A DNA stretch of 64,000 nucleotides from Irpex lacteus (Eukaryota; Basidiomycota; Agaricomycetes; Polyporales; Irpicaceae): positions 1,116,001-1,180,000 of the forward strand of contig MQVO02000009.1 of the NCBI GenBank assembly GCA_001986395.2, given 5' to 3'. The notes under the pieces are model-generated. The model saw nothing but the letters and a program-made list of their open reading frames with translations. It did not search any database and was not told the origin of the DNA. The position numbers and the translations under genes were made by a program. The stretch's first letter is position 1. Each line of letters opens with the position of its first letter. Positions 1,327 to 61,000 of this stretch are shown here, piece after piece.

Positions 1327-3239
1327 ATGTTCTCAGCGTTGATTTATTCTTTTCTGGTACTCGGTGCCCATGTATTCGCTGTCAACGCTCAAGAACTATT
1401 CCAAGAGCAATTAACGTTGCGACCTCATCGCGATGGCACTGTGCTTGGACATTTCGCTTTCAAGACTATACTGAAGGGTGCAACTCCTCGAAATCCGGAG
1501 GCTACGCACGTTGAAGATGACTGTGCGTGTTGCTTTGCTGTATACTGCAATGACTGCTAAAGTTTCTTAGCGCAGCACTACACGCTCTTCCCTTTGGCTT
1601 TGGGGCAGGTTCTTAGAGAATACGCGGTTACGGAGCTCCATTTGACTCTGAATGCTGGGAAGTGGAATTATGATAGCTGGGGCTATCCCGAGGAGGATGG
1701 TGTGGCCACTGGCGCGGAACTGTGGGCGTGGATGGCAGAGGGAGCCGATGCTAGGTAAGAGCCGGCACTGAACATCGCTTTACTTATGTGTACTGATGAA
1801 TGCATAGCGTGGACGAACGATGGCGTGGTTTGCGAAGTAACTTGGCAGGCTTATTCTGTGCATCACTAGGTTCTATGGACGAACAGCGCACTACCTCCCC
1901 ATCGCTCACCTTTGTGCCCGAAGGCGACCTTCCAGGACCATCAACGTCGTATAAATTGAGGCATGGGACTCTACCGTCAGAAAACGTGTGTACCGAGAAC
2001 CTGACACCATTCCTGAAGCTGCTTCCTTGCAAGTCTCTGTCAGGCATCGCGAGTTTACTTAACCCACACCGGTTGTTCGATGGAGACTGGCACGGGATGG
2101 GCATCCACGTCCGGTATATCGAAGGAGTGGGTATCGAAGTTAGACTGACTTTCCAAGGCGTTTTCAACCCTGTTCGGTACAACACCGACCTGAAGAGAGG
2201 TACGGACGGATGATCTGCTGTGCTATTGCGTTGCTGAGTAAAGTGCGGCAGATTGGTCTCTGGAAAGCATCTTTGGCAGGACTATCAAACGAGAATGCCC
2301 AGTAGCCCGTCGCAGTGAAATTCGGCTGATCTCCACGACGGACATTGTCGATATAAAGCCTCTTCCAGAGGTCCATAATGCTGATTTCGCGACATACGAC
2401 GTCAACACTGGTATGTACATTAAAAAACATACTCAGTATATGGTTTCTTACCGTGTTTTCAGCCTTAAAGCCGTTGGACGTATCAATGCGTTGGTCAAAC
2501 GAGTCGCATTTCGAGTATCGTGAGTGCAAGGTTAACAGCAAGCAACGCCGGTCATTTGACACGTGAAACAGCGCTCTCCGTAGACTTACCACCTCTGACC
2601 CACATTTCGGTGCGGCGTACTCTGAAGGGAACGGACCAGTCCAAGGGGCAGCTTGCTGTCGTCATTGACAATCATCACAACAGGCAGACGAAAGTCAGCT
2701 ATCTCGAGACAATGCCATGGCTGCTCCAATTCCACCTCAATTCGATACAGGTGAAGTGGAATGATGTGCCTCGCGGTACGTATCCGCGTTTATTGAGTTT
2801 CTGGCGTGATCTGAATGAATTCTCAGATGATCTTGTGTCCATAATATCATACATCCCACCGGTACCTCATTCACGGCCAACACTCCTACAATCCGTGCTC
2901 ACGTTACCTGCAAACGGGACATTACATCTCACTGTGGATGTGACGAAGCCTTTCCTACGATACACCGAACACCCTCCCGACGCACAACGAGGATGGGATC
3001 TCCCCCCTGCTGTCTTCCGACCCTTGGCCACCAATGACTCGTTCCATTCTGGCCCACGACGCCTACCACGAATATACACACCAGTTCTCCTGGTAGACTT
3101 GGCGACTCCCGACTTCAGCATGCCTTACAACGTGATTATCATGAGCTGTACACTTATTGCGTTGATCTTTGGGAGCGTGTTCAATTTGTTGACGAGGAAG
3201 TTCACTGTAACGCCGATACCGCAGGATCGTGCCCAGTAG
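1327..3239 (+). CDS. GPI16: GPI transamidase component PIG-T/Gpi16
   Basis: This is a subunit of the ER-membrane GPI transamidase, which replaces the C-terminal signal of precursor proteins with a GPI anchor. The N-terminus is a signal peptide (MFSALIYSFLVLGAHVFA), followed by the family opening QEQLTLRPHRDGTVLGHF. Later exons give LNAGKWNYDSWGYP, then the WRGLRSNLAGLFCASLGSMD region, the WHGMGIHV segment, SVRRTLKGTDQSKGQL and LQFHLNSIQVKW, all in the order known for PIG-T. A single transmembrane helix (VIIMSCTLIALIFGSVFNLL) sits near the C-terminus with a short basic tail, as expected for a type I protein. At least six short introns interrupt the gene. I saw no break. Confidence 0.9.
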
Positions 3240-24805: not shown

Positions 24806-24977
24806 AGTGCGTGAAGGAACTAGGAGGCGAAGACATAGAGGAGGAGCCTACAGGTATCACATAGACGCGAGGAGGGCGGGTGACGGTATTAAGTAGTACT
24901 GTCGTGATGCTGCGTTAATATCCTCGTTAATCCCGTGCATCTCGTAGTGATCGAGTTGACGCGGATGCAGACTGTCT

Positions 24978-25026
24978 CACTGCGTGCATCACCCGATGTT
25001 CCGCGCGGGAAATGAATTAATGCCGG
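24978..25026 (+). repeat. Left terminal inverted repeat
   Basis: It starts CACTGCGTGCATCACCC and matches the complement of 37333-37381. Most differences between the two ends are C/T or G/A transitions. A TCT direct repeat abuts it on the left. Confidence 0.85.
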
Positions 25027-26072
25027 TTAAGGAAATTTATTTATGTTCCTTTATTGCTGCTTCGGGAAACATTTTGAATGTTGTCAGGTACAGCTGTATT
25101 TAATGTTGTATGAATGTATCATCCCGCATCATGCTACTTGTTTCTTGGCGCATCATGTCAAATATTACATGCAGCATCATACTAGAAATATTCTTAATGT
25201 TCGAAGGCGAGATCGGGATATAATCAGTATTTGTTTCCCTTATCAGACAAGTAGTTAGAGTACAGAGAAACATATTTGAAATTAACATGTTCTTATCATC
25301 ATGTTGCGGTACAGAAAATATCAAAACTTCCGGTCGGCAGTAATTAGTCCACATTATGAATGTATCACTACGGGGAATTTGAGGGAACACCAAAGTTGTT
25401 GTGTCAATGTTGCGTAGCATATGAATTAAGATAAGTCCATAATGCTCCACTTGGAAGCAGCCTTTTGAGATCAGGACACAACGCTGAAGCTGCTGCTGAG
25501 CGGTCTTGGTCAGCAATAAGACGAAAAATATTGAAAATGTGTCACAAGAATAAAAATAGAATGTTACCAAGTAGCAGGTGAGAACCTTTCAAAATGTTCC
25601 GCCAGGCAGAATGCTCAAAGATGTTCCCTAAATGAACATTGCTACAGGTGCAAAAGAGAAGATCGTGCACAGCATCGGAAAATAATTATGATTTTTCTCT
25701 GCAGGAACATTGTAAATGTCTGCAGACCTCATGTTCGAAATGAGGAAGTACCCCGGACACTTTATTTTACATTATAAGAGTAAACACATTAATTCAACGC
25801 TGCAACTTAGATGTTGCTTGAACACTGAGTAATGCGAGTCACAAAAGGTCCAATGCCAGTGCTTCCGCTCGGTACATCAGAAAATGGCCTTTTGGTGCGG
25901 GGGAGCCTGAGGCAATCGGTTTCTCCCAAGTGCGCTGGGGTTTCCCCAGGGCGCCCCAGTGCCACCTCGGTCGCCCTGAGACGACATCTTAGGATTACTA
26001 CTTACCGAGGTCAGACTAAGGATGCTTGAGGTTCTGTAAAACATGTAATTGTGACTACAATATTCATTGCCT
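25027..26072. repeat. Left subterminal repeat region of the transposon
   Basis: This AT-rich stretch has no gene. It carries many copies of AATGTTCC or its complement, with variants (near 25042, 25195, 25593, 25622, 25634, 25704 and 25731), which are the usual transposase-binding pattern in CACTA-like elements. A second inverted repeat (TACATCAG then AA/GG/TTTTG) lies at 25873-25895, and a GC-rich patch with CCTGAGGC and GCCCTGAG at 25905-25985 mirrors a patch at 36417-36510. Confidence 0.65.
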
Positions 26073-29000
26073 CTACCATACAGTTCTGTAGCTATACAAC
26101 GACTGCCAGTTATTGATGAAAAACGTTTCACATTTGTCGAGTACATTTTCTGAGGACCAATCCTTCTGCGAATCAATCTCCAAACGATCACCGTAGCACG
26201 GCGTGAGCATACATGCCTGGCGCACATTTGCAAGTGGGATGATTGCCCCCGGGACTACCTTATCGCGCGTGGTTTCGGGCATCCGCGCAACCTGGTAGAA
26301 TCCATGAACACCGCTTGGTGCAGATCGCGTTGGCGAATACCATTCGACGTATGCAAGCGGTCCTTTTGGCCACGCCGCGGGAGCTGGATGGGGGCCGTAG
26401 AGATCTAATGTCTGCGGTAATTTGAAAACCACCTTCACGCGTCCTACCCTAGTGCCTATAGAAAACCTGAGATTAGCAGCAATTGATCCTGAGAAAAAAC
26501 CAACACACCTTGTAGACCTGCAGCTTCTGCGGCATTGCTTTCCAAAATGACCACGGGATCAAAGCGGGAGGGATTGGACTTGATCGCTGGGGTGCACTTC
26601 ACTGTTTGCTCCTCAAGTTCGTCGTCGTCTATGATACTGGGCGCATGCACTGTGAACTGGTGAAACACACCGACTCGATCAAAGGGTAGCTGTATTGGGG
26701 GGGTGCGGCGAGTTGAGTTTCCAGGCATGAAGGTGTTAAGGTATTGACGGAGACGTAGCGAGAATCCGGGAGCCTTGTGCGTATGCTCGATAACGGAAAG
26801 CTTTGAGGTCGAATCAGGATGCTTCGCAATGGAGATTCTAGTGCCAGTCGGACTAGACTTCGACTTCTTATTGAGTGGCCCCTGCTGCGGTGCGACGGCT
26901 TCAAGATAGCGGTCAAAGGCTACAATCTTCTCCTGCCTCTCCAGCCATCGCACCATCTGGGGAAATGCGTCACGCTTGTTCGACGCGCGATATCCATGCT
27001 TGGCGAAGTCTATATGAAGACGCTCGAATAGCTCAGTGTTGTAGTTGTCGGTAGTGCCAAACAGGCGGATAGAGCTGATGTAATGACAGAGGGCATGGAA
27101 TTTGGGTATGTTGAGGTTATCGCGCACCTTTGTTCGGATGAAGAATGCCTTGTTCTTCTCCCAACGGTCCAGAGCAGACTGCATTTCATCTAGTGAGTCG
27201 TTGTTGTGTGAGGGGTACTGAGCGTAGTATATGAAGTCGAGGATGGCGCGGCAGGCCATGATTCCTCTGTTGGGGAGAAGACCGACTAGGCAGGCAAGCA
27301 GAAGTTTGGCCATCTGCTTACGCTCTGAGCCGGTTATCTGAGATAGCGCAGAGATTCCGTTCTGAAAGTGACGGACACCAAAAGCCCGGGGTAGCGTGCG
27401 AAGACGGCGGTCAAGCTCCTCTTCAGTCACGAGCTCTTGGCACCATCCAATGAGGTGTTTGAATACACCCTGATAGAGCTGATGGAGTACGTCAGGGGTG
27501 ATGGCAAGGTGGATGTCGCTGTGAGGCATATCCTCCCAGAACGGTGTCCATGCGCCTGCAGCGACGTCGCGCTCCATGCAGTACTTCCGATACTGTGCGC
27601 TGGTGGGGTCCCGAACATGGGTCTTCGCATCCTCCATAACGCCTGTGGTCCACTCTTCTGTTCGCGCCTCAAAGGAGGGTGTGTCTTGGAGTCGGTCAGC
27701 TGGACAGCGGCACTTGGGACATGTCCCTCCTTTGGAACACGCGACCAAACATTGCTCAGGGAAGTCCGCAACATAGGCCGCCAAGACTGGGTAGACACGA
27801 CGAACCTCTCCATCCCCACTGGCCATCTCTACACCTTCTGTTCCAGCCTTGACCAAGGGCTCAAGTAATACGCGCATGGCTTCGTGGAATACGCGCTGCT
27901 GTCGAGCACGTGTCTCATCTGCGGTGAGGTCAGTCCCCAAGACCTTCTCCGTTGGGAGATATCCAATGAGGACGCATGCGTGCATAGAGGGTTTCCGACG
28001 GATAGCTTTGGGTAGATTGCCGAGGGTGAGATAGACAGGGTAGGCTTGCTTTCCTCCAGAGAAGTTGGTGAGATGTGTCTTGTCTGTAGCGATAATGAGA
28101 GGGGCTAGAGTTGCTCCTTTGGGTAATCTAGACTGCTAGAGTGTCAATGATATGTCACAGAGTCTGGGCATGCCGTGTTTACACACCTGAGCAGCATACC
28201 ACCAGTTTCCACTCCACATCTCCGAGTATATCCTGTTGGCCTTCGTAGCGTTCGCAAAGATCTTCCGCGGGCGATAGACCAGATGCTTAGCCAGTGCTGG
28301 ATCCCCCCAAAGTCCTCGTATAGCTTCCACGGGATTTCGCATACGCAGGAGATAGAGTTCGTCGGGGACATCAGGGAATCTGAGGCCGCGCACAAGCCAC
28401 TTTCCTGCACGCTGCGGTATCTCTTCTAGACTCTTCTCAAGGGTGCTATAGTTCTTGAAGGAGAGATTGAGTCGGTCACGGACCTGATAGTATGATCAAC
28501 CAAGTGGATAAGTTTGAAGTCTGTAAAATGAACGTACCTCTGGTATTGCAAGAAGACGATTCAAAGCGTTGTGCCCTATATCTTCTTTGATGACCCAGTG
28601 GGCAATCTTCCAGTCCAACCGCGACACAAAAGGGAAGTAGAGCTCCTCGCTATCTGTCTCCGCTTCCCCTTCAGTTGTCTGCAAAACACGCTCTCCAAAC
28701 CGCCGCCTCCAAAGATCGTGTAGCTTATCATCCAGACGAACTCTAGCCCCAGCCCCAATATACTCCTCAATATGGTAGTCATCTTCATCGTCGTCTAAGA
28801 CTCGAGCTTGTGCCATATGTTGGGCTTGAGTCGAAGGTCCCGGGCCAGCCTCGCCGATGGCTACGTCTTGAGGCGGCTGCAGCGCAAGATTGGGGGGAGG
28901 GATGAGCTCAAATAGATTTCGGTCGTCGATGTCGATGTCCGCAACGTGTTCAAGCTCAGCAAGGACTTCGATAGGGTCGGACCACTCTGCAAGCTTGCCT

Positions 29001-29110
29001 GATCGATACCACGCACACTTCTGACTCTGACGTATATGGCGATTTTTGGAGACTTCTGTGTTGAATATTCGGTGGCACGCCGGGCATGACAGATCATCAA
29101 GAGTCGGCAT
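26073..29110 (-). CDS. Plavaka transposase
   Basis: This enzyme should cut and paste the element by an RNase-H-fold reaction. The start is ATG 29110 (MPTLDDLSCPACHRIF), which opens with a C2H2-like zinc finger (CPAC, then HIRQSQKC). After a disordered acidic segment come DLWRRRFGE, a conserved IFANATKANRIYSEMWSGNW segment, then KGATLAPLIIATDKTHLTNF with the first catalytic Asp (ATDKT). A CX2C pair (CPKCRCPAD) follows, then TPDVLHQLYQG with the second Asp and NTELFERLHIDFAKHGY with the Glu. The C-terminal exon (26438-26073) contains VVFKLPQTLDLYGPHP and a regulatory-like domain ending SYRTVW. Exon joins at about 28530, 28186 and 26509 keep the frame. The product is roughly 900-950 residues, close to full family length, with no stop or frameshift seen. 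Confidence 0.85.
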
Positions 29111-31164
29111 TGTCGCAGAGGACGTGGCAGTGGAGATTACAGAATGCGTTGGTGGTGGTGATTTTCAGAGAGCAACGGGCGCTCATACAATAGGCCCGCG
29201 AGTGTTCGATCAATAATGGGGATGCTGGGGCTTCTCGCCCCAGAGTATGGTATATTCTACATGTATAACTACACAGATATTGCATTAAATACAACTATTA
29301 AGACAGCGTCCATCTGAATACCCACAGCGATATGCTCCCAAGTGCCCAAGCTATTGCCCATCCAGATCGCTCGAACTGCTGGCTCCCGGCGTCGAATGCG
29401 CGCGTGAGGACGACCGGGCATTGTGGGGCGGAGAGGGGCCCGTACGCGCTTTCAGGGCTAGCCACACTTGGTTTGACTGCAGGATGGGGTCAGTCAGAGT
29501 GAGTCGGGGGCAGCGAGGTTGGGAGAAGTGGATTTGTCAGTCCAAAGAGAGGCGAGGTCGGGGCAAATGGGAGTTTACAAGTGGAAAGAGAGGCGAATCA
29601 GAGAGATGCGAGTGGCAAGTTTTGGTAAGATGGGCGAAATCCACCGGGTGCAGCAACAAGCAGCGATGGCGAGCGGCAAACGCGTGCGGTGACAAGGGCA
29701 GCGAGGTGAGCGAAAGAACAAACAAACAATCAGCAAAGCCTCTCGAAAACCATATTAAGGGACGTACCTGTTGTGTGAGCGCAGCAAACAATCCAGTGAG
29801 TTCCCACGAATGACGTCAGCTTGGGCAGCGGCGGGGCGAGGGCGCACATTTGGGGGGAGATGTAGGTGGTTACTACATGCACCGGGGTGGTTTTGACGGC
29901 GGGAGTGGCCGAGGAGGGGGAAGTCTCACTGGCGTAAGAGAAGGGGGGAGAGGTGGAAGAGAGGGGGGGGACCCTGGCAGGTGCGGCGGAAGTTGAAGAT
30001 GGAGATGGCGATGCGTATTACGTCCGTGTAATGCGTTGGGGTTGTTAGTTGGTGGGTTAAAGAGTTAGAGGGTGAGGGAAAAGGAGCGGGGATGGAGGGG
30101 TAGGGGCAGACTCACGCAGAGCATGCTGTTGATATTGTGTACGCCGCAATGTTACGGCTACACAAAGTAAAGCAAAACGCACGTCAACGACATCACAGCC
30201 ACAAAACTAGCAGTAAGATGAAGATATCTGTACGCACCTCATTTATATCGTTCCAAACGCGCACCTCATCTGTATGATCCTTCTACGCATGTCCCATTCC
30301 TACTCCGTACCGTCTTAGAACCGCCCTTCCACCACTCCCAGGTCTTCGAGTGAGGGAGTCTACCCACGCGCTGCTACCGCTCCAGCACCAGCCCTCGTAT
30401 TTGTCGCCGTGTTTAGGGTTGGAGGGCGCGTCGAGGTCCACGGTTACTTTGTAGACAGGGTGACGCGTTGGACGTACCTTGCGCTTAGTACCAGCGACGT
30501 CGTTCGTCGTCCGTCGTCTCCACCGGGTCCAGGAAACTCTTCATCCTGCAGACTGCCTCAGGACATCAGCGGGCATTGGAGGGGGAGTAAACAGATGTCG
30601 AGGATACCGGTTTCGGATACCGAGAGGGTGAAAGAGGGGAAGGGAGAGGGGTGAGGGGTCCGCAAAACGATGAAATCGCGGGCTGGGTATGCAAGTGAGT
30701 CGATTATCGAAAGTCGAAGCTGACATGCGTACTCACATTGCACGCTCCTGTTGGCCGCAACAAGGAGCTCCGTGTATTGGTACACAGGAGTTCTTTCGTG
30801 TGGTTGGATCTGGGGTTCGGGCTAGTCCAGTCGTAGAGGGAGAGAGTCGGTGCGAGAGAAGATGGACGCGAGTCGAATTCGACAAAGGTTCGAGCGCTAC
30901 GTCGGCGCCTATTCGCACTGCCAGCGCATGCTCGTCTTCTCTTCTCTCTTCTCCTCACCCACTCACCGGTACTCACCTCTCAACCACCGCAACACCGCGG
31001 AAGATCCAGGTACGTCTCAATAAATAGTTATATACGCCTTATGCTTACAGTCTTCATGTCAGGCTTGAACGTTTTGGTTAGCACGGGGCTGTTCATTGCC
31101 CTCTGCTTACTCAAGCTTGGTTTCATCGCAGTGCTGAGTGCGGGGAGGTTGGCTGGGTCTCTCT

Positions 31165-31262
31165 CTCTGCTGTCGTTCGCCTGCTTTTGTTCACCTGCTC
31201 TCCTGCTCTCCTGCTCTCTTGCTCTCCTGCTCTTCTTCTCTCCTACTCTCCTTCTCTCACTA
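31165..31262 (+). repeat. CT-rich simple repeat
   Basis: Imperfect tandem copies of a roughly 10-base CTCCTGCTCT unit give a strong strand asymmetry. It lies about 420-510 bp upstream of the dioxygenase start and may be part of its promoter. Confidence 0.6.
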
Positions 31263-31490
31263 TCACTCGTTTGACATCCCTTCCTCGCTCTCCACGCTGT
31301 TCTGATCTCCTGCTTTCGGTCAACCTACCACTGAGTTCACTCGCTGTCACTCCTTTATCGCCTCCGTTGCTTGTGTTAAATACTCTTTAATCTTTCTGTA
31401 AGTTCTTGATTTAATATTTAGTAGTCCATTATTCTTTTTCTTCCGCCCGTTCTTACTTCTTGAATGAAGTTCAAAGTGTGGAAGACTACG

Positions 31491-31603
31491 CTGAACCGAA
31501 CTTCTGGTTCTACGAGTCGGAATCCTTTGGCTTCTTATTACTTTCTACTGTGTATGGTTGTGGACAACTGCGCTGAACCGAACTTTTGGTTCTACGAGTT
31601 GGA
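31491..31603 (+). repeat. Direct repeat pair upstream of the dioxygenase
   Basis: Two roughly 31-bp copies at 31491-31521 and 31573-31603, 82 bp apart, differ at only two sites. Each has an internal palindromic pair GAACC...GGTTC. They end 77 bp before the dioxygenase start codon, so a regulator-binding role is possible. Confidence 0.6.
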
Positions 31604-31679
31604 TACTTCCATACCCCTTAACCTTTTTCAAACTTTCTACATGCTCTATTATATTTACTGACGTGCTATTTAGAATAAT

Positions 31680-33562
31680 ATGAGTCTCCCTAATCATATA
31701 CAAACACCAACTCCAGTACGTCCTCCATGCGCAGTGTAAGGGAGTACATACACTGATACCTTAACAGCAAGCGTATAATATTGGACCTACCTTAACTCGA
31801 CTATTGCAAGAGGCTCTCGCCCGTGAAGCTGGACGTGGGGATCGCGAAGCCGACGATACCGAAGGCCAAGGCATCATGGACGACCCTTTTAATTCCACCC
31901 TCTCTTCGCTGACGGCGTCCCCAACTGCCACCCCGTTTTATACCCCGTTTGGATCCCCTCTTGCTTCTCCCACCCCATCTCCTCCTCCTACTCGCCCTTT
32001 GAGCCCATTTTATACCCCATTTGGATCCCCTCTCGCTTCTCCTACACCATCTCCCACGTCTACCCGCCCTTCAAGCCCCTCAGTCCCGACTGCCCGACCA
32101 CCTCAGCCACCGGTGGTATTGACGAAAACGGTGAAAGCTGTAAACTCTCGGAAACGTTCTCGTTCCGTGACTGTTGATGCCGCTGACACTTGCATGGTCA
32201 GTAGTGGTCGCCTCAACGCCAATGCCAATGCTACGTTACGCAGAGGCCGCGATGAGCCGCCGCTCAAGAAGCAGAAGTGGCACCAGCGGGAGGGACACCG
32301 CAAACGTCGAGGTAGAAAACGTGGTGAGATGAAGCAAGACCCCTGTACTCAGAAGATACGTGCTCACCTGCTCAAAAACCATCCGCACCTCAACTATCTG
32401 CCCACGAGCTTTGATGTCACCGACCTCGCTGCCTCACAGCCTGGTTTTATCGGAGTCAACCTTCCCCAGGTAGAAAGATGCCGCACTCTGCAGGAGTATC
32501 TCGCAGATGGCTTCACTGTGATAGAGTGGGATGGCAAGTGCGTGCATTCCTTTATTTGTTGTGATGTACTGTCCTAACACTTCTCTAGATCCACGCTTCT
32601 ATTGGTCGACGATCAAGGTAGGATATTTGGCGCATGCGTTCCCCCGCCCACAGACGGAGATCCCTGGGATGCTGTCACCATGAAGGAGTTCAACGACGCA
32701 CTTCGCAAGGCAGAACGGGACATGCATTTTGGGACAGAGGAGGATCGCCGGGGGGAGTTTGATACAGAGACGTTTGGGTTTTCATTTGGCGGTGGTCGAA
32801 AGGTGTGTTGTTTGATTGTTATATGAGTGCGGTAGTGACACCTTGCACAGGTCCCTGGACGTCTGAAGCAATCGGATCACAATATGAAGGTCTACCAGGA
32901 GTTCATGATGAACCAACATGTTCGCAGAGTACTGGGACACGCGAATGGTAAGCTTCCTTGTTTATATTACGCCACCAAGCAACTAATACCAATTAGCTGT
33001 CTTCCGTTATTATTTTCCTAAGCTCTATGGAGACTACTGCGACCTCATTCGAAGACTGCGGAGATCGTATCCCGGCTTTGTAGATCCTGTACCACCCACC
33101 GCATTCCTCTCCGTAACAACCAACTATGGTAAGCGCAAGGCTGTGCAAACTGTTGAGCACTTGGACATGGCGAACAAGGCCAACGGCATATGTCCTATCA
33201 TCTCGGCTGGCGACTTCAACCCCAAGACTGGTGGTCATATCAGCCTTCCGCAGCTGAAGCTCTTGATAGAGTTCCCTCCTGGCACATTCATCCTCATACC
33301 GTCTGCTACACTGATTCACGGGAATGTCCCGGTGGCCGAAGGAGAGCATCGTGACTCCATCACAATGTTCACCGCTGGTGGACTGTACCGTTGGTTTGAG
33401 TATGGTGGCCGCACGGAGAAGACTATGAGAGCCGAAGATCCCAAGGCATGGCGAGAGGAGTTGCGAAGACGCAAGACTCGGTGGCAGGAGCTCATTGGCC
33501 GTTTCTCTACTCTCAATAGTCTTCCTGCTGACCAGATCCCATGGCTTTCCAAGGATATGTAG
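31680..33562 (+). CDS. TET/JBP-family 2-oxoglutarate, Fe(II)-dependent DNA dioxygenase
   Basis: TET/JBP enzymes oxidise the methyl group of 5-methylcytosine (or thymine in JBP). Exons 31680-31715, 31768-32537, 32589-32802, 32851-32947 and 32997-33562 give 560 residues. Residues 1-200 are disordered, with two TPFYTPFGSPLASPTPSP-like repeats and basic clusters that could bind DNA or direct nuclear import. The catalytic domain follows: GFTVIEWDGKSTLLLVDDQ, then HLDMANKANG with the iron ligands H427 and D429. Then come the IISAGDFNPKTGGHISLPQL segment, the distal His (H480 in LIHGNVPV) and R491 (HRDSITMF), which should bind 2-oxoglutarate, before GGLYRWFEYGG. All ligands are present, so activity is plausible. 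It sits inside the transposon, transcribed away from the transposase. Linkage of TET/JBP genes to transposons is known in basidiomycetes. Confidence 0.82.
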
Positions 33563-34111
33563 TGGGCTTACACGCGTTTCGCCAGTGTAGATAGCTGCCT
33601 ATTCTGTGTTTGGTGATTGATGTCTCCCTTCTGGCGAATAAACCTAGACTTTGTTCTTATCGCGCAAAAGTCCGAAGACATGTGAAGTCCGATGGTCAAG
33701 ATCCAAAGTTTGAGATCTAGTGATACCAAACCATGTGTTGCGCCAGCGTAAGTTCAAATCAAGTATCTCTAGTGATTGTATGTCTGACCTCTGTTGCTAC
33801 TGCAGTTATGTGCATTTTGACCAGGCATTGAGCTTTACACAGGGCTGAATGTATGGAGTTGAGTGCAACGTACAGTGGAGAACCTTGGTGCGGCAGATCG
33901 AAAGCCGAAAATGACTTGTTAAAGGTTTGAGATCACTAACCAATTTTTAGGATCGTATCTCGCGGCAACACGGCTACGCGGCGGCGCGCACGCCATACTT
34001 TCGAGATTAATTTTGTTATCAGCGGAACACTTCAGCCGCTCTCTCTCTCCCTCTTTCCCTCTTTCCCCCATCCCTCACCTCCTTTCAACCAAGCTTCGAC
34101 CGCTTCCAACC
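33563..34111. other. Intergenic inside the transposon
   Basis: About 550 bp between the dioxygenase and DUF6532 genes. The right end has a TCTCTCTCCC tract and a GC-rich patch (33971-33996) just before the next gene, typical of a fungal promoter. Confidence 0.4.
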
Positions 34112-36145
34112 ATGAGCAAATCATCCAATGCCTCCACTCGTTCGGGTCGAACTACTGTCCCTAGTGGACGCTTGACGGAATCTCGCGAACACGCTGCTGC
34201 CTCAAAAGCCGCCGATAGTTCTGCAAAAAAGAGGCGTGCACCTGGTAAGGCTCCCCCTCCTCGTCCCAAGACCAGCACTCCTGCCTCCTCTTCATCCTCG
34301 GCTCTGGTGTCAGCTGCAAAGCTCACTGAGGACGAGATCAACACCCTTCTGCAGTTAAAGGCTGCAAAGGAAAAGGAGGCGAACATGGCTGCCAGTGCCA
34401 AGCGACAAGCCGCTAAAAACAGTGAGCTGACTTGTGTAGTCTTTTTCCACCCTTTCAGTATGTCGCTAATGATTCACCTAGATAAAAACCCGTCTGCAAC
34501 AGGAGAAAAAAGAGCTGCAGATGCGCGTCGCAAAGCTGGTAAATTTTTTTCCTGTGTTCTTAACGAAATCTAATTATTCCTTAGAACAACAGGCTCAGCT
34601 TGAGACTGAGTTTGCAGCTGATGCTGAAGAAGAAGAGGAGATGGAGATGCCACTCCCAAAGCGTCGGAAGCGCAGTGTTATGACTGTCAATTCCGACGAT
34701 GAGGACCCACTTCCGAACGCTGGCGCGGTGGATGACGCCTCGGACGTGGAGGACGTCACGCTCGATGATGGCAAGTACAAGTTGATCACCACCTTACCTT
34801 GCAGTAACAAATGTCCGACAGATGCTAGTTCTCAGCACGAGAATAATGGTGGTGTAGGTTCAGATGTCGACGATCTGGATGAAGATGATGATGAGGATGC
34901 TCACGAGAGCACCAAGAACATTGGAAACGGGGTACGTGTATTTTGACTTCTTGAATAATTCACTCAACGTTTATGTTCAACAGATGGATGTCATAGACCT
35001 TGACGTCGCTACGCCGCAGAAGAAAGACAGGCGTGGCAAAATTGCTGAGAGCGACTTCACACCTCGCACCCGCAAGCTCGCCAAAACAGCCAAAGCGAGA
35101 GCTCGTGCGCTGACCGTCATGGAGGAAGCGTACCCCGACGATGCAAGCGTGGCTTCCATGCGCGCACTCACCGACACTGTTGACAACAGCATTGGGCCCA
35201 ATGCGAACAGCTTCGAGGATGCGCTACGCCGCGCAAACCAGTCAACAACTGTTCGCGAAGACCTGCTGACATTTGTAAGTGTCAGATGTTGCTTCACTCT
35301 CAACTCTTACTGACATCGCCTGTAGGTAGGGTACGCAGCTACTGGCATCAGAGGCGAGATCACCACCAAAGTCAAGGAACTTTGTGGAGCACTCACTGGT
35401 ATCCCGGGGAACCTGACTGAGGAGGAGATCAGGAAGCGTGTCGGGTGGATGCTTCGGGCTATGCATTACATGTATGGGGGTGCTGATGCAGAGGTACGTA
35501 TCACTTGTTAGATCAGAACATCACTAACGTTTGGAATAGAAAGAAACCGTCAACAGGCAGCAGCCGTTTCACAGCGTTTTTCTTAAGCCAGTGATCCAAC
35601 AAACTGTCTTTGGAAAAGGGCACGCCAACCGTGAGGCGGCTCGAAGCATTATTGAGGAGCGTGAGATTCCGGCTAATCTCTTTGCTATGGTGGGAGCTGC
35701 GGTATGTTGTTATGTGCTTGTCAGTCACTATCACTGAACCTGAACTTTGCCTCAGATTGAACATACGCTGAAAGGCTGGAGCACCGGTTCGCCAAGCAAT
35801 GCACCTTTTACTGAAAGCAACGCAAGAGAAGCGTACGTGTAAATCTACTCATGTGCATCTGTGTCTACTGACAAGCTTCCAGGTGTGATCGCCATCGCGC
35901 CTCGTTCTCCAAGCTTGAGGCGAATGCACCCAAGTTCACTGCAAAAATGAAGCGCGACCTTCTATATGCTATCCTGTAAGTGCTGCAGTTCCCTATAGAG
36001 CTTCACTGACTACCGCGCTATCAGACGTGATTGCGGAAAAGCTCACCTTCTAGACGATGTGGCAGTTCCTGACCCCGACCATCTCAAGGATGTAGACTTT
36101 GACGCGCTAGAGGCATCTGTGGAGGACACCGTTACGGCTGAGTGA
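34112..36145 (+). CDS. DUF6532 protein, transposon-borne
   Basis: The start is ATG 34112; the upstream open frame begins with TTG and was not used. The N-terminal half is disordered: Ser/Ala/Lys-rich, then acidic (EEEEEMEMP, DDLDEDDDEDAHE) with a nuclear-type basic cluster (KRRKR). The C-terminal half is folded and matches DUF6532: GYAATGIRGEITTKVKEL, then HSVFLKPVIQQTVFG, then EREIPANLFAMVGAAIEHTL followed by KGWSTG and KMKRDLLYAIL. Members are abundant in mushroom genomes and often lie near transposons; no activity is assigned. Seven or more introns are present and the frame is kept throughout. Its co-orientation with the TET/JBP gene suggests it belongs to the element, perhaps as an accessory protein. 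Confidence 0.75.
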
Positions 36146-37332
36146 TGTATTCGTTGACCATTCACCTGCGCTATGTACCGTTTCTCTTGCTGACCTTTAC
36201 GCTCGTTTCATTATTTCAATCTTGTATTTACCCACCGTAACACGCTCTTTACATTTATTTACCAACTGTCCAACACTCGTTACCTAAATATACGTGTTTC
36301 TGCTTCACAAGCTCATGCGTCGGAAAGCCCTGGTATTGCCTGAGTACCCTGTAGTGTGAAATAAGGCAGAGAATAATGACCCGCATTGAGACTACAGGTT
36401 TGTATTGGGACGCGTGAGGCTGCCTCAGGCGCCCTCAGGGAATTTGTACCGTGATAAGGAGTGCCTGACAGCACTGGTGCCCTGAGTGCCCTGAGGAAGA
36501 CTCAGTCAGCCTTGGGGTGTCCCAGGTCAAAATGTCCGTTCTCTGATGTATGCGTGAGTCTTACATTTCCTTCATAACCACGTAACTTAAGCATGAGATG
36601 GCATGATGCGGTGTCAGGGGTCTCAGGCCCTTGTCAGCACGTTGCGCCGTGGGGTCGTTTTAAATGTTCCCTTCATGTTTGCCTCGTGTTGTCCCGCAAA
36701 ACGTTTATAATGTTCCACTTCTATTGATGTCTGGTGTATCATTCATAATGTTCCACTTGATGTTAGTTATATCGTTCCTTTGCCTGCTACCAATCACAAA
36801 ATTCATAATGCTTCCCAGGACCATTATGATAACATTGTTATTATCATCTTAGTGTCCTCGGAAATATAAGTAAACATACTGCACTTCCAACCGCCCAATT
36901 TGGCCCCTCTCGCAACATATATTATTCTATTCACAATTTCCACGAGGCATCCACGTGTAGAATATCATTCGACTTCCGAGAACCATTGAACATGGTCCTT
37001 GGGGTAACATATAAATATAATACCTAATGAAGCATTTTATTCTTTTCCGCATGGTGCGGTGTGAAACACAGGCATACCAGCCTGATCATTTCTCGAGTGG
37101 TACTCATAATAACATGTGAATATACATTAATATTTTACAGTCATGCTGCGCAGAGTAACAATTCAAAAGGAGCATGTCTAATCTTGTTAATCTCTGGCTA
37201 ATCACTTCCCGCCATCAACATTCAGAACATTTCCGCATTGCCTCATTAAGACATGTTAGTCCGGTTACATTAAATATATTTTAATAATGATTCCTCGGCC
37301 GACAGCATGGAAACATTCAAAACTCTCCCTCG
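36146..37332. repeat. Right subterminal repeat region of the transposon
   Basis: No gene is seen. A GC-rich patch at 36417-36510 has GCCTCAGG and CCCTGAGG motifs in opposed orientations. The complement of 36528-36550 matches the inner inverted repeat at 25873-25895 (TACATCAG core). Between 36660 and 37332 the sequence is AT-rich with repeated AATGTTCC/GGAACATT-like motifs (near 36664, 36708, 36748, 37218 and 37309), mirroring the left side. Confidence 0.65.
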
Positions 37333-37381
37333 CCAACATTGATTCATCTCCGCCCCGGAACATTGGGTGATGCACGCAGTG
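37333..37381 (-). repeat. Right terminal inverted repeat
   Basis: Read inwards on the minus strand it begins CACTGCGTGCATCACCC, matching the left end. It is followed outside by TCT (37382-37384), the second copy of the target duplication. Confidence 0.85.
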
Positions 37382-37826
37382 TCTTGCCCCACACGAGTGA
37401 CAAGATTCATATGTTCCGGGTATCGCAGCACAGGCATAGGCGGGTTGCATGTGTATTCTAGTCGTATTTGTATTGCTGAGCGCAGGGGTTCGGCCATTTG
37501 TAAGGGGGCAATTTACGTTGGGGAAGAAGACGGTGTGTGCAGAGACGAGTAACCGGTGATGCTGAGAGGCGGTTGAGAGGAGGCAGCAGTCAGAAATAAT
37601 AATTGGAGGCACTCTATGTACGCGGCCGATTCGAGCAGGACAGTGCGGGGATTGCACAGGCTCTAGTGCGGCGATTATCACATGCCAAAGTCTGCCCCGG
37701 TCAGTAAAGCCGCCCGCGTGATTGGCAGAGGCGTATAAGAGTCTTGTTCTGACGCAAAGCCTTCGCTTTCTCTCCGTAACCCCCTTCATCCCCGACCACC
37801 ATCCCCACATCACTCGCATCCTAATC
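37382..37826. promoter_or_regulatory. Fumarate reductase promoter next to the transposon
   Basis: Only 445 bp separate the transposon end from the fumarate reductase start. A possible TATA-like GTATAAG lies at 37733-37739, and a pyrimidine tract precedes the ATG. The insertion may therefore affect this promoter. Confidence 0.45.
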
Positions 37827-40293
<2,467 letters not shown>

Positions 40294-58027: not shown

Positions 58028-61000
58028 CTACTCGTCCTCCCTCCACGGTTGTTCAACATTCCCTTCCAGTGTATCCGCCTCGTGCCCGCCCAGATCCTCT
58101 GTCTGCTCCAAAATCTCCTCCTTTGTCCTCGCGATGAGATCGTCGAGTGCGCTCAGGGCCTCAGTCCTACGGATGACGTCGTATCGGCCGTTCCTGTCAA
58201 CTTCTTCATGCGGGTCCCAGTCAATTCTCTTTCCAGTGCAACCGCCTCCGATGTGAACGTAGTTGATAAAGGCACGCCAAAGAGGATCCAGAGATAGAAC
58301 GGTGGGGTCACCGATGACGACCAGGAGAGCTTGTGCACGTGTGACGGCGACTACAAAGAAGTCTCAGATTAAGAAGTCCTTGTGTACGGCAATGAAGAAG
58401 GCGATGAAAGGAAGCGTACCGTTGAAACGTCTGGGGTTGGCTACGAAACCAAGTGTGTGACGTAAATCGAACTTGACGTTCTCCATACTGGATCGTACAG
58501 TAGAAATGATCATAACTCGCTTCTCCTGTAACACAACACAGCGTAGCGTTTGAGAACTGTGTGTGCACCAGAAATAGATAAACAGACGAACCTGGCCCTG
58601 ATACTCTTCGACGCTTCCTACCTTAATTTCCTTGTTCTTGAGCAATTGACGAATCTTTTGCACTTGGGCGTGGTAAGGAGAGATAACGCCAATTTGCTCG
58701 GGTCCTACAAAAAGCAAATTCAAGGATATGAACGGGAATCAGCGTAGAACGGGATACTTACGAAGACGCAGTTTACGATCCTCCAGGAGGTTGGCGATGT
58801 ACTTCTTAACTTCTGAAGCCTCTGAAATGTTGAAGAACGACGGAGACGACGCCTCACGCTCATCTTTACCCTTGATTCCATGGAAGATGACGGGGAAGTC
58901 TTTCTTGACAAGTCCGTCCCAGCGAGCCAAGCTCTGGGTGACAGTAGGATCGCCGCAGGCAACGAGGTCTCCTCGGTAGAACTCGTCGTTGGGGAACTTG
59001 AGGATGGCCGGATGCGAGCGCCAGTTCTTGACAAGCTTGCTAATACTGATGCAGATGAGCAGGAACGTCTTAACGTGGAGAAAGAATCAAAAGCGGTAAC
59101 ATACGTGACACCTCTCCCATTCCTCTCATCGTAGATCGGGTTAGCCATCAGACGGTCGAGATAGCTCTGACTAAGACCGAGATCCCTGGCGACGGGCGAA
59201 CGAACGATGGGTCCCAGCTGCTTGCTGTCACCAGACAGAACAACATTCGTCTTAGGGTCCGCCATCGTCTTTACAGAAATCATCACCTCAGGTTCGGTGG
59301 CCTGCCCTGCTTCGTCGATGAAGATGTGCGAGAAATGGCCTCTTGGTACACCGATACCGTAGGGCAGCGACGCCGACAGACAGGTACAAACGACGACGCG
59401 GAATCTCCTGAGCTCGTCCGGAGAGGGGACCACGAATCGATCAAAGCCATCATCCTTCGTGATACGAGACAAAGCGAGGACAGCACGAGGCACGTTCTCG
59501 GTTCCTCGAGAGTGAGCGTTCAAGCGGAATACTTTCAACTTGCCAAGATCAGCAAGTCGTTCTGCGATGAGGTCCGCCGCCGAATTGGATGGGGCACATG
59601 CGAGGACATGTGTCTCGGGTTTGGTCTGAACGAGCTGACGGATGGCTTCGACGATCGTGACCGTCTTGCCTGTACCAGGTCTGGACATAGTAGAATGTCA
59701 GATATATAAACACACAGCATTGATCGAACAAAGGACATACGGGCCAAACACTACGAACGGTACGCTCCCGTCTGGTCGATTTATGATTGCAGCAACTGCT
59801 TCCAGCTGAGGCCGGTTCTGCTCGATCTTCCGGTCAGTCAGTCGTAGTTGATCCATCACCGCTGGAGTTGGCGGACGAAGGCGTTGTGCGTGTGTCGGGT
59901 TGGGGAAGAGTACACGACTCTCCGTAAATGCGGTGTTGAGGCCTTGGTGCATTCGACGATAGACGAGGCGGTTGAGGTCGAAGCGGACATGATATTTTTG
60001 GCCCCTGTAGCTATTGAACTTCGGCGAGAAGCGAAGAAGCACTGTGTTCATCTCGACCTTGTGCACATGTCCCTCAAACCAGTGATTGACAGCAGAGCCA
60101 TAATTCTTGACGAATATGCGATCCGAGACGATCAAGCTGGGGCGCTTCTCTGCCAGACCTGCGACTTCCAATCTACGACATAATTAGCACTCTCCAGATG
60201 TTAAGAGAATTGGAAGGTTACCTGTAGAGACTAGACCGTTGCACTGGCTCGAGAGTCGCTTCGTTCATATCATACGCACTCAAGTCTCGTCGTGCACGCT
60301 CTTCTTCGATCCACAACATATGTCCGAGGTTACGAGCGTAGTTGTTTGTGCTCAACTGATTCGGAATGAAAGTTGAGCGAACACGTGCTGCAGTCTTCGA
60401 AGGCGAGAGGTTGGATTCTTCGCATTCGTCCAGAAGTCTCTTCAGTGCCTTGGGGATCTCGTAGGGTAACAACCGCACAGCCCACTTAAACTCAGAAATC
60501 GCGGGAGGCGGGATACCTGGAGTGAAGTCATCGATCGGCTCATCTAGTTGCTCGGTACGTTTGGGGCGAACGTAAGGACGGCGAGCCTTCAGAAGCTCGT
60601 AGTCCTCCTTGATTCCAACGACTGCCTGCACCGAACGCGTGATGGCAAAGCGCTTGTTGAGGCGAGGATCCTTGAACACAAACTCAACGCGATCTTCGTA
60701 ACGACCACTGTTTCCTTCCGGGCGGAAAGTGATGGTGAAAGAAACCTGTTGATTCTGCTGAATGGTCACAGGCAGCTTTGTGCGCCCGAGCGCAAAACTA
60801 TCACAGACCAAAAGACGTTAGATACGTTGAAGATTTAGACAAGGTGCTTACCCCGACGATGTCGTACGCGAGGTGAGCTGAGAAGACAAGCGGGCCTCGA
60901 CAATCTGCACACCAGTAACATTAGTGTTCTGGATTGCGACCTTCTTTGACCACGAAGCGTTAAGGTTCGCAGACTCATTGACAAAACCAAAGTCGAGTGA

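Follow-up and report, generated by a model that had tools for sequence, protein, structure and literature searches.

A PlavakaB-Type Transposon Nested in a Small Element of Another Family in Irpex lacteus, with a DUF6532 Gene and a Putative TET-Like Dioxygenase

Genes and Boundaries of the Locus

A 64,000-nucleotide stretch of Irpex lacteus contig MQVO02000009.1 (assembly GCA_001986395.2, positions 1,116,001 to 1,180,000 of the forward strand), referred to here as the window, contains a Plavaka transposon of the PlavakaB type, which is inserted at a TA dinucleotide within a 1.73-kb non-autonomous element of another transposon family. The Plavaka spans 10,674 bp (25875-36548), has CATCAG..CTGATG ends, is flanked by a TA target-site duplication (25873-25874 and 36549-36550), and encloses three genes. 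Its left terminal inverted repeat (25875-25899, plus strand) is imperfect and matches the right one (36524-36548, minus strand) at 17 of 25 positions. The interrupted outer element (24978-37381) has CACTG..CAGTG ends, measures 1,728 bp without its insert, and is flanked by TCT duplications on the left (24975-24977) and right (37382-37384); no strand is assigned to the two elements or to their duplications. An earlier note on the same DNA had described 24978-37381 as one apparently intact 12.4-kb Plavaka carrying a transposase and its own TET/JBP dioxygenase. A Plavaka with a TET-like dioxygenase is indeed present and apparently intact, but at 25875-36548 rather than at 24978-37381, and its third gene, which encodes a DUF6532 protein, had been overlooked.

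The transposase gene lies on the minus strand (26073-29110; exons 28538-29110, 28185-28483, 26509-28127 and 26073-26455). Its 957-residue product matches all 325 positions of PF18759 (357 bits, E = 1.2e-106) and contains the three segments quoted in the note (ATDKT, TPDVLHQL and NTELFERLH). An in-frame TAG at 28136-28138 was considered as a frame break and rejected, because it falls in a stretch that is variable and intron-like in eight other aligned copies. Several splice choices are possible near this TAG; the one that fits the family was chosen, and the model given is one of several. The dioxygenase gene (31876-33562, plus strand; exons 31876-32537, 32589-32802, 32851-32947 and 32997-33562) encodes 512 residues, and the DUF6532 gene (34112-36145, plus strand) encodes 541 residues in nine exons, with a match to PF20149 at E = 4.5e-26. 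All three gene models were made by hand and without transcripts. With introns modelled in this way the frames are unbroken, as had been claimed, and all three genes lie within 25875-36548.

The Nested Insertion

The boundaries were established by comparison with an empty copy of the outer element. A search of the genome (G000; 44.3 Mb in 317 contigs, named C66, C308 and so on) revealed a 1,729-bp copy without insert on C66, compared with 1,728 bp for the joined flanks of the window. The joined flanks align with the C66 copy over its full length, unbroken at the join, with 58 substitutions and about 97% identity (join placed two bases away), and the inserted length given by the empty copy is 10,676 bp, equal to the Plavaka plus one TA. 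In the published section on PlavakaB, these elements are described as having CATCA..TGATG ends and duplications of 2-3 bp (Kojima 2025, PMC12730594, section 3.2.2); the CATCAG..CTGATG ends and the TA/TA flanks found here agree with both features. End motifs alone are not decisive, since the window holds 533 CATCA..TGATG pairs spaced 8-14 kb apart, 34 of them with a matching 2-bp flank. The 25875/36548 pair ranks first among them by its terminal repeat (17/25, with a runner-up at 16), and it is the empty copy that decides.

Several observations weigh against this anatomy. Taken alone, the C66 copy locates the insertion point with an error of a few bases, since a TG of the window corresponds to CA in C66; agreement is 76 of 80 bases for a join at the canonical TA and 78 of 80 when the join is moved by two bases. 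In favor of the inner boundaries, a genome-wide search, in which simple repeats and very frequent words are passed over, gave no match to the ends of the Plavaka apart from the ends themselves. The description of the element as a single copy thus holds for these ends, and there is no second copy to demonstrate mobility. The ends of two other loci that pair Plavaka with DUF6532 could not be settled, with one chance-like candidate at C307 (GA, 14/25) and none at C6. The ends, nesting and gene content as redrawn are nevertheless regarded as highly probable. The boundaries of a model element are thereby corrected, and an empty copy with 97% identity is pinpointed in the same genome.

DUF6532 as a Partner of One Plavaka Group

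A profile search of the genome identified 23 stretches matching DUF6532, which form 14 loci. A Plavaka match was found within 10 kb of 11 of these loci and within 15 kb of 12; the 10-kb surroundings of the 59 Plavaka clusters listed make up about 2.8% of the genome. The unpaired loci are C213, which is 27 kb from a Plavaka match, and C241. All 12 pairs are divergently transcribed (the C75 pair was scored against the full-length transposase at 64552, passing over a nearer weak match). The pairs are not independent of one another, because the copies share descent. Conversely, a DUF6532 partner was found at all nine Plavaka loci with a near-complete Pfam match in a single stretch, some of which carry stops. 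Among the five loci with a near-complete match in two separate stretches, DUF6532 was found at C308:2312k and C134. At the other split-match loci (C58:2901k, C313:562k and C15:28k), DUF6532 is absent from the surrounding 15 kb on either side, which counts against a general pairing, and the partner was likewise not found at loci with gapped matches (C141:22k, C313:400k and C313:408k). DUF6532 therefore looks like the partner gene of one Plavaka group, given its divergent orientation near Plavaka at 12 of 14 loci, and is not universal among Plavaka elements.

Seven pairs have their DUF6532 and transposase stretches 2-3.6 kb apart, and in the other five the spacing is 6-14 kb. The pair in the window is among the widely spaced ones, with the dioxygenase in between. 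In the transposase-DUF6532 interval of the element at C54:373k, no extra long frame was evident by eye (frames not scanned against families). In the literature searched, DUF6532 was named in one paper, simply as an item in a list of domains that also includes KDZ and Plavaka, and an earlier notice is possible; it is not mentioned in the main text of PMC12730594. Plavaka, KDZ and DUF6532 in one genome would fit a mushroom-forming basidiomycete. A role can now be suggested. As a recurrent second gene, DUF6532 would most likely encode an accessory factor that binds the element ends, regulates the element, or helps the transposase.

The Dioxygenase and Its Relatives

The dioxygenase contains the HxD..H..R signature of the 2-oxoglutarate- and Fe(II)-dependent oxygenase core, which comprises the residues for iron and 2-oxoglutarate. 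In the 512-residue model these are H379, D381, H432 and R443, and N384 lies three positions past the aspartate. The four residues had been correctly recognized earlier, with numbers 48 higher than in this model (H427, D429, H480 and R491). The Asn at Asp+3 occupies what we take to be the position of the Asn of TET2 that contacts 5-methylcytosine, and would favor this base as the substrate. The Pro/Ser-rich N-terminus contains a tandem duplication (31932-32075, plus strand) with a 72-bp unit, 83% alike, and CT-rich eight-base tandem repeats are located upstream of the gene (31188-31259).

Relatives of the dioxygenase core were found at 11 other loci in the genome; low-complexity N-terminal matches at two C48 places were kept apart from this count. 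In an alignment of 11 sequences, which includes the protein of the window and a partial C315 row and omits the short C308:625k sequence, both His residues, the Arg, a Gly-Gly-His and the Asn at Asp+3 are invariant, and the iron-binding Asp is missing in two. These two copies carry HRT (C307:87553-88080) and HRN (C70:54402-54929) in place of HxD, and are therefore probably without iron binding. When the 11 rows were scored against Pfam, six matched Tet_JBP with E no higher than 1 (best 1.8e-6), four matched 2OG-FeII_Oxy_3 and one matched 2OG-FeII_Oxy_5; the row of the window's protein had no match among the families scored. In the genome-level Tet_JBP search, four loci of the family scored 24.5-27.3 bits, under the cut-off of 34.9. 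The sole match above the cut-off, C18:926929, adjoins a KDZ match and has Ser at Asp+3 and Asp at Asp+9, as expected of the AG type. With Tet_JBP matches for six of 11 rows and none for the protein of the window, the family is borderline for TET/JBP on sequence grounds.

Assignment of the protein to TET/JBP is plausible, and draws on its relatives rather than on its own sequence. Searches with the protein itself speak against the assignment: no Pfam family matched it with E of 10 or less, and its best match among PDB sequences was an unrelated transposase (E = 0.051), with no TET protein. The family profile likewise recovered from the PDB only a PKHD-type hydroxylase (E = 0.3) and no TET structure, and a single-sequence structure model of exon 4 was of unusably low quality (predicted local distance difference test score, pLDDT, 38). 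A scan of viral contigs revealed no relative of the dioxygenase.

By residue comparison, the dioxygenase differs from both mushroom types reported, PE and AG. The TET+ PlavakaB elements of Agaricus bisporus and Gymnopus confluens resemble the element described here in having a Plavaka transposase, CATCA..TGATG ends, a 2-3-bp duplication and an internal dioxygenase, as described in the passages on these elements (Kojima 2025, PMC12730594). Their dioxygenases are of the PE type, the type reported from Plavaka in the same passages, which has HxE, whereas HLD with Asn at +3 is present here. The HxD..H..R arrangement is shared with the AG-type TET/JBP proteins of Kyakuja/Zisupton and with CcTET of Coprinopsis cinerea. 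However, the AG type has Gly or Ser at Asp+3 and Asp at Asp+9 (PMC12730594, section 3.4), whereas the protein of the window has Asn384 and Cys390 at these positions in an ungapped count. These differences suggest an additional kind of transposon-borne TET-like enzyme in mushrooms, in which case Plavaka may have captured such enzymes more than once.

A link to KDZ elements, as in the AG type, is also apparent within the family. At three of the 11 other loci (C173, C32 and C141), a KDZ transposase lies 1.4-1.8 kb away on the same strand; at seven (C307, C70, C315, C37, C308:625k, C308:1287k and C308:1756k), no Plavaka or KDZ match was found within 40 kb. In a tree of 12 sequences, the dioxygenase of the window groups with C308:1287k and C308:625k (support 99/98), apart from the KDZ-adjacent copies, so that the tree does not demonstrate direct capture from a KDZ element; five of the nine inner branches of this tree are unresolved, and C308:625k is short. 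The copies at C37:801338-802750, C140:29544-30086 and C315:894791-898032 are nearly identical in the tree, which suggests recent movement. The 90 kb on either side of the C37 copy and the whole contig of the C315 copy are free of Plavaka and KDZ matches, and a Plavaka fragment lies 3 kb from the C140 copy. The two C48 places (C48:62639-62924 and C48:99148-99433) match residues 39-133 of the dioxygenase, of low complexity, next to decayed AT-rich Plavaka pieces, and are possibly relics of a related element.

Methylation Context and Proposed Mechanism

The C5-methyltransferase family PF00145 has eight matches on five contigs of the genome (C257, C313, C308, C125 and C124). In ten pairs of transposon copies, which were compared without a non-transposon control, transitions were 3.8-7.8 times more frequent at CpG sites than elsewhere in five pairs (window-C66, 5.9; C308-C170, 7.8; C308-C214, 5.2; C170-C214, 6.0; L014-L016, 3.8) and 2.3 times in one; the remaining four had changed too little for a judgement, and one of these has zero CpG change. 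These ratios are inflated, because a site was counted as CpG if either copy has CpG there, and transversions at CpG sites were likewise raised in the same five pairs (1.3-4.9 times, with 4.9 for window-C66). Taken together, the methyltransferase matches and the CpG-biased transitions suggest that a CpG methylation substrate exists in the host.

In the proposed mechanism, the Plavaka transposase would cut and paste the element, and the dioxygenase, as an extra gene between the transposase and DUF6532, would most likely oxidize 5-methylcytosine on or near the element, which would allow the genes of the element to be expressed. The occurrence of TET/JBP genes in Plavaka and the anti-silencing idea are already published: transposon-borne TET/JBP proteins are proposed to help DNA transposons to escape methylation silencing, a view given without experimental proof (Kojima 2025, PMC12730594). 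Provided that the enzyme class is correct, self-demethylation of this kind is considered somewhat probable. About the same credence, a little better than even, is given to the explanation as a whole, in which a PlavakaB element nested at TA would use DUF6532 as an accessory protein and the dioxygenase to relieve silencing. CpG content does not favor it. The observed/expected CpG ratio is 0.88 over 24978-37381, compared with 0.97 and 1.00 in the flanks, so that no protection from methylation is visible; across 21 Plavaka loci, including that of the window, the ratio ranges from 0.61 to 1.07.

A different role for the TET-related cargo is possible, though clearly the less probable explanation. 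The enzyme might act on N6-methyladenine, thymine or another base, it might act genome-wide, or it might be a passenger without benefit to the element. The seven family loci with neither Plavaka nor KDZ nearby indicate that partnership with such a transposase is not required, and the loss of the iron-binding Asp from two copies, the absence of detectable similarity of the protein itself to 5-methylcytosine dioxygenases in Pfam and the PDB, and the CpG content just described are in line with such a role. In contrast, the frame is open with all catalytic residues present, and the Asn at Asp+3 presumably corresponds to that of TET2. With regard to mushrooms, oxidized 5-methylcytosine is reported to lie on retrotransposons as well (PMC12730594, Discussion), which fits a broader action, but such enzymes are also recorded as repeatedly associated with DNA transposons (PMC12730594).

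A transposase accompanied by a second element protein has precedents. Plant CACTA/EnSpm elements carry a second gene, TnpA. Vandal elements encode an anti-silencing protein (cited in PMC12730594). The likeness to these systems, in the second protein and in element-encoded relief of silencing, is an analogy that implies no sequence relation; unlike those systems, the element described here would lift silencing by oxidizing bases directly, with DUF6532 as its second protein. A more elaborate scheme is rather unlikely in its entirety. It would have DUF6532 as the conserved, TnpA-like second protein of one Plavaka group, working here with a fourth TET-like kind (HxD with Asn, neither AG nor PE; PU not compared) that reached Plavaka independently of the PE captures, with DUF6532 bringing the oxidase to the element ends.

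The Outer Element and Its Family

The inverted termini of the outer element (24978-25047 and 37312-37381; 70 nt, 77% complementary) and its TCT/TCT duplication are real, as the earlier note had stated. That note had also named the occurrence of the same termini elsewhere as evidence against its reading. When each end was searched against the genome and the results were pooled, one or both were found at 12 places beyond the window, so that the ends at 24978 and 37381 are not single-copy. Nor do they delimit the Plavaka; they are the ends of a distinct 1.73-kb element, which also occurs without the insert. The 12 places were inspected whole or in part; an extra match at C58:2152673, to the inner part of the right end only, was left out. 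A 3-bp duplication is present at all seven copies with both ends readable, including that of the window (TCT, CAC, ACA, CAG, AAA, ATA and GTA). The remaining six have one recognizable end each in the stretch inspected and are outside this count. Four of the seven two-ended copies measure 1.7-1.9 kb (C66, C308, C170 and C214), and the others are C54:779723 (3.2 kb), a C313 element (11.2 kb) and that of the window. Three of the 1.7-1.9-kb copies diverge by about 16-21% from the ends in the window. The places at C255:855727, C165:341623 and C38:18816 share the right half, with no window-type left end in the stretch inspected.

The C313 element (160322-171562; L068, L069) has outer-family ends and an ACA duplication. 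Among the 10 frames scanned of 26 long frames listed (main part), no convincing Pfam match was found; the best, Polyoma_coat2 at E = 0.15, was taken as chance. The genome-wide profile search placed no Plavaka match inside the element, and relatives of one of its frames occur at nine further places in the genome. It is probably an autonomous relative of the outer family. The 1.73-kb element belongs to a transposon family other than Plavaka.

The C66 copy was at first taken as a deletion derivative, an interpretation that was dropped because the junction is a TA-flanked CATCA..TGATG insertion. That the 12.4-kb unit is itself the Plavaka and the 1.73-kb C66 copy its internal deletion derivative is very improbable: the roughly 97% identity of C66 to both ends and the clean outer ends with their 3-bp duplication would be expected of it, but the supposed deletion coincides exactly with a TA-flanked piece bearing the PlavakaB ends published in PMC12730594 (section 3.2.2), the same outer ends also bound the C313 element, where neither the 10 frames scanned of 26 nor the genome-wide search gave a Plavaka match, and the three divergent 1.7-1.9-kb copies, and CATCA-ended PlavakaB elements without the outer element are described for other species in the passages of PMC12730594 on PlavakaB, though none was seen in this genome.

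Flanking Features

No tRNA or Rfam family was detected in the 64-kb window. The genes flanking the nested elements encode the glycosylphosphatidylinositol (GPI) transamidase subunit Gpi16 (2469-3236), a flavin adenine dinucleotide (FAD)-binding/cytochrome b5 protein (38550-40221) and an AAA-domain helicase-like protein (58723-59697).

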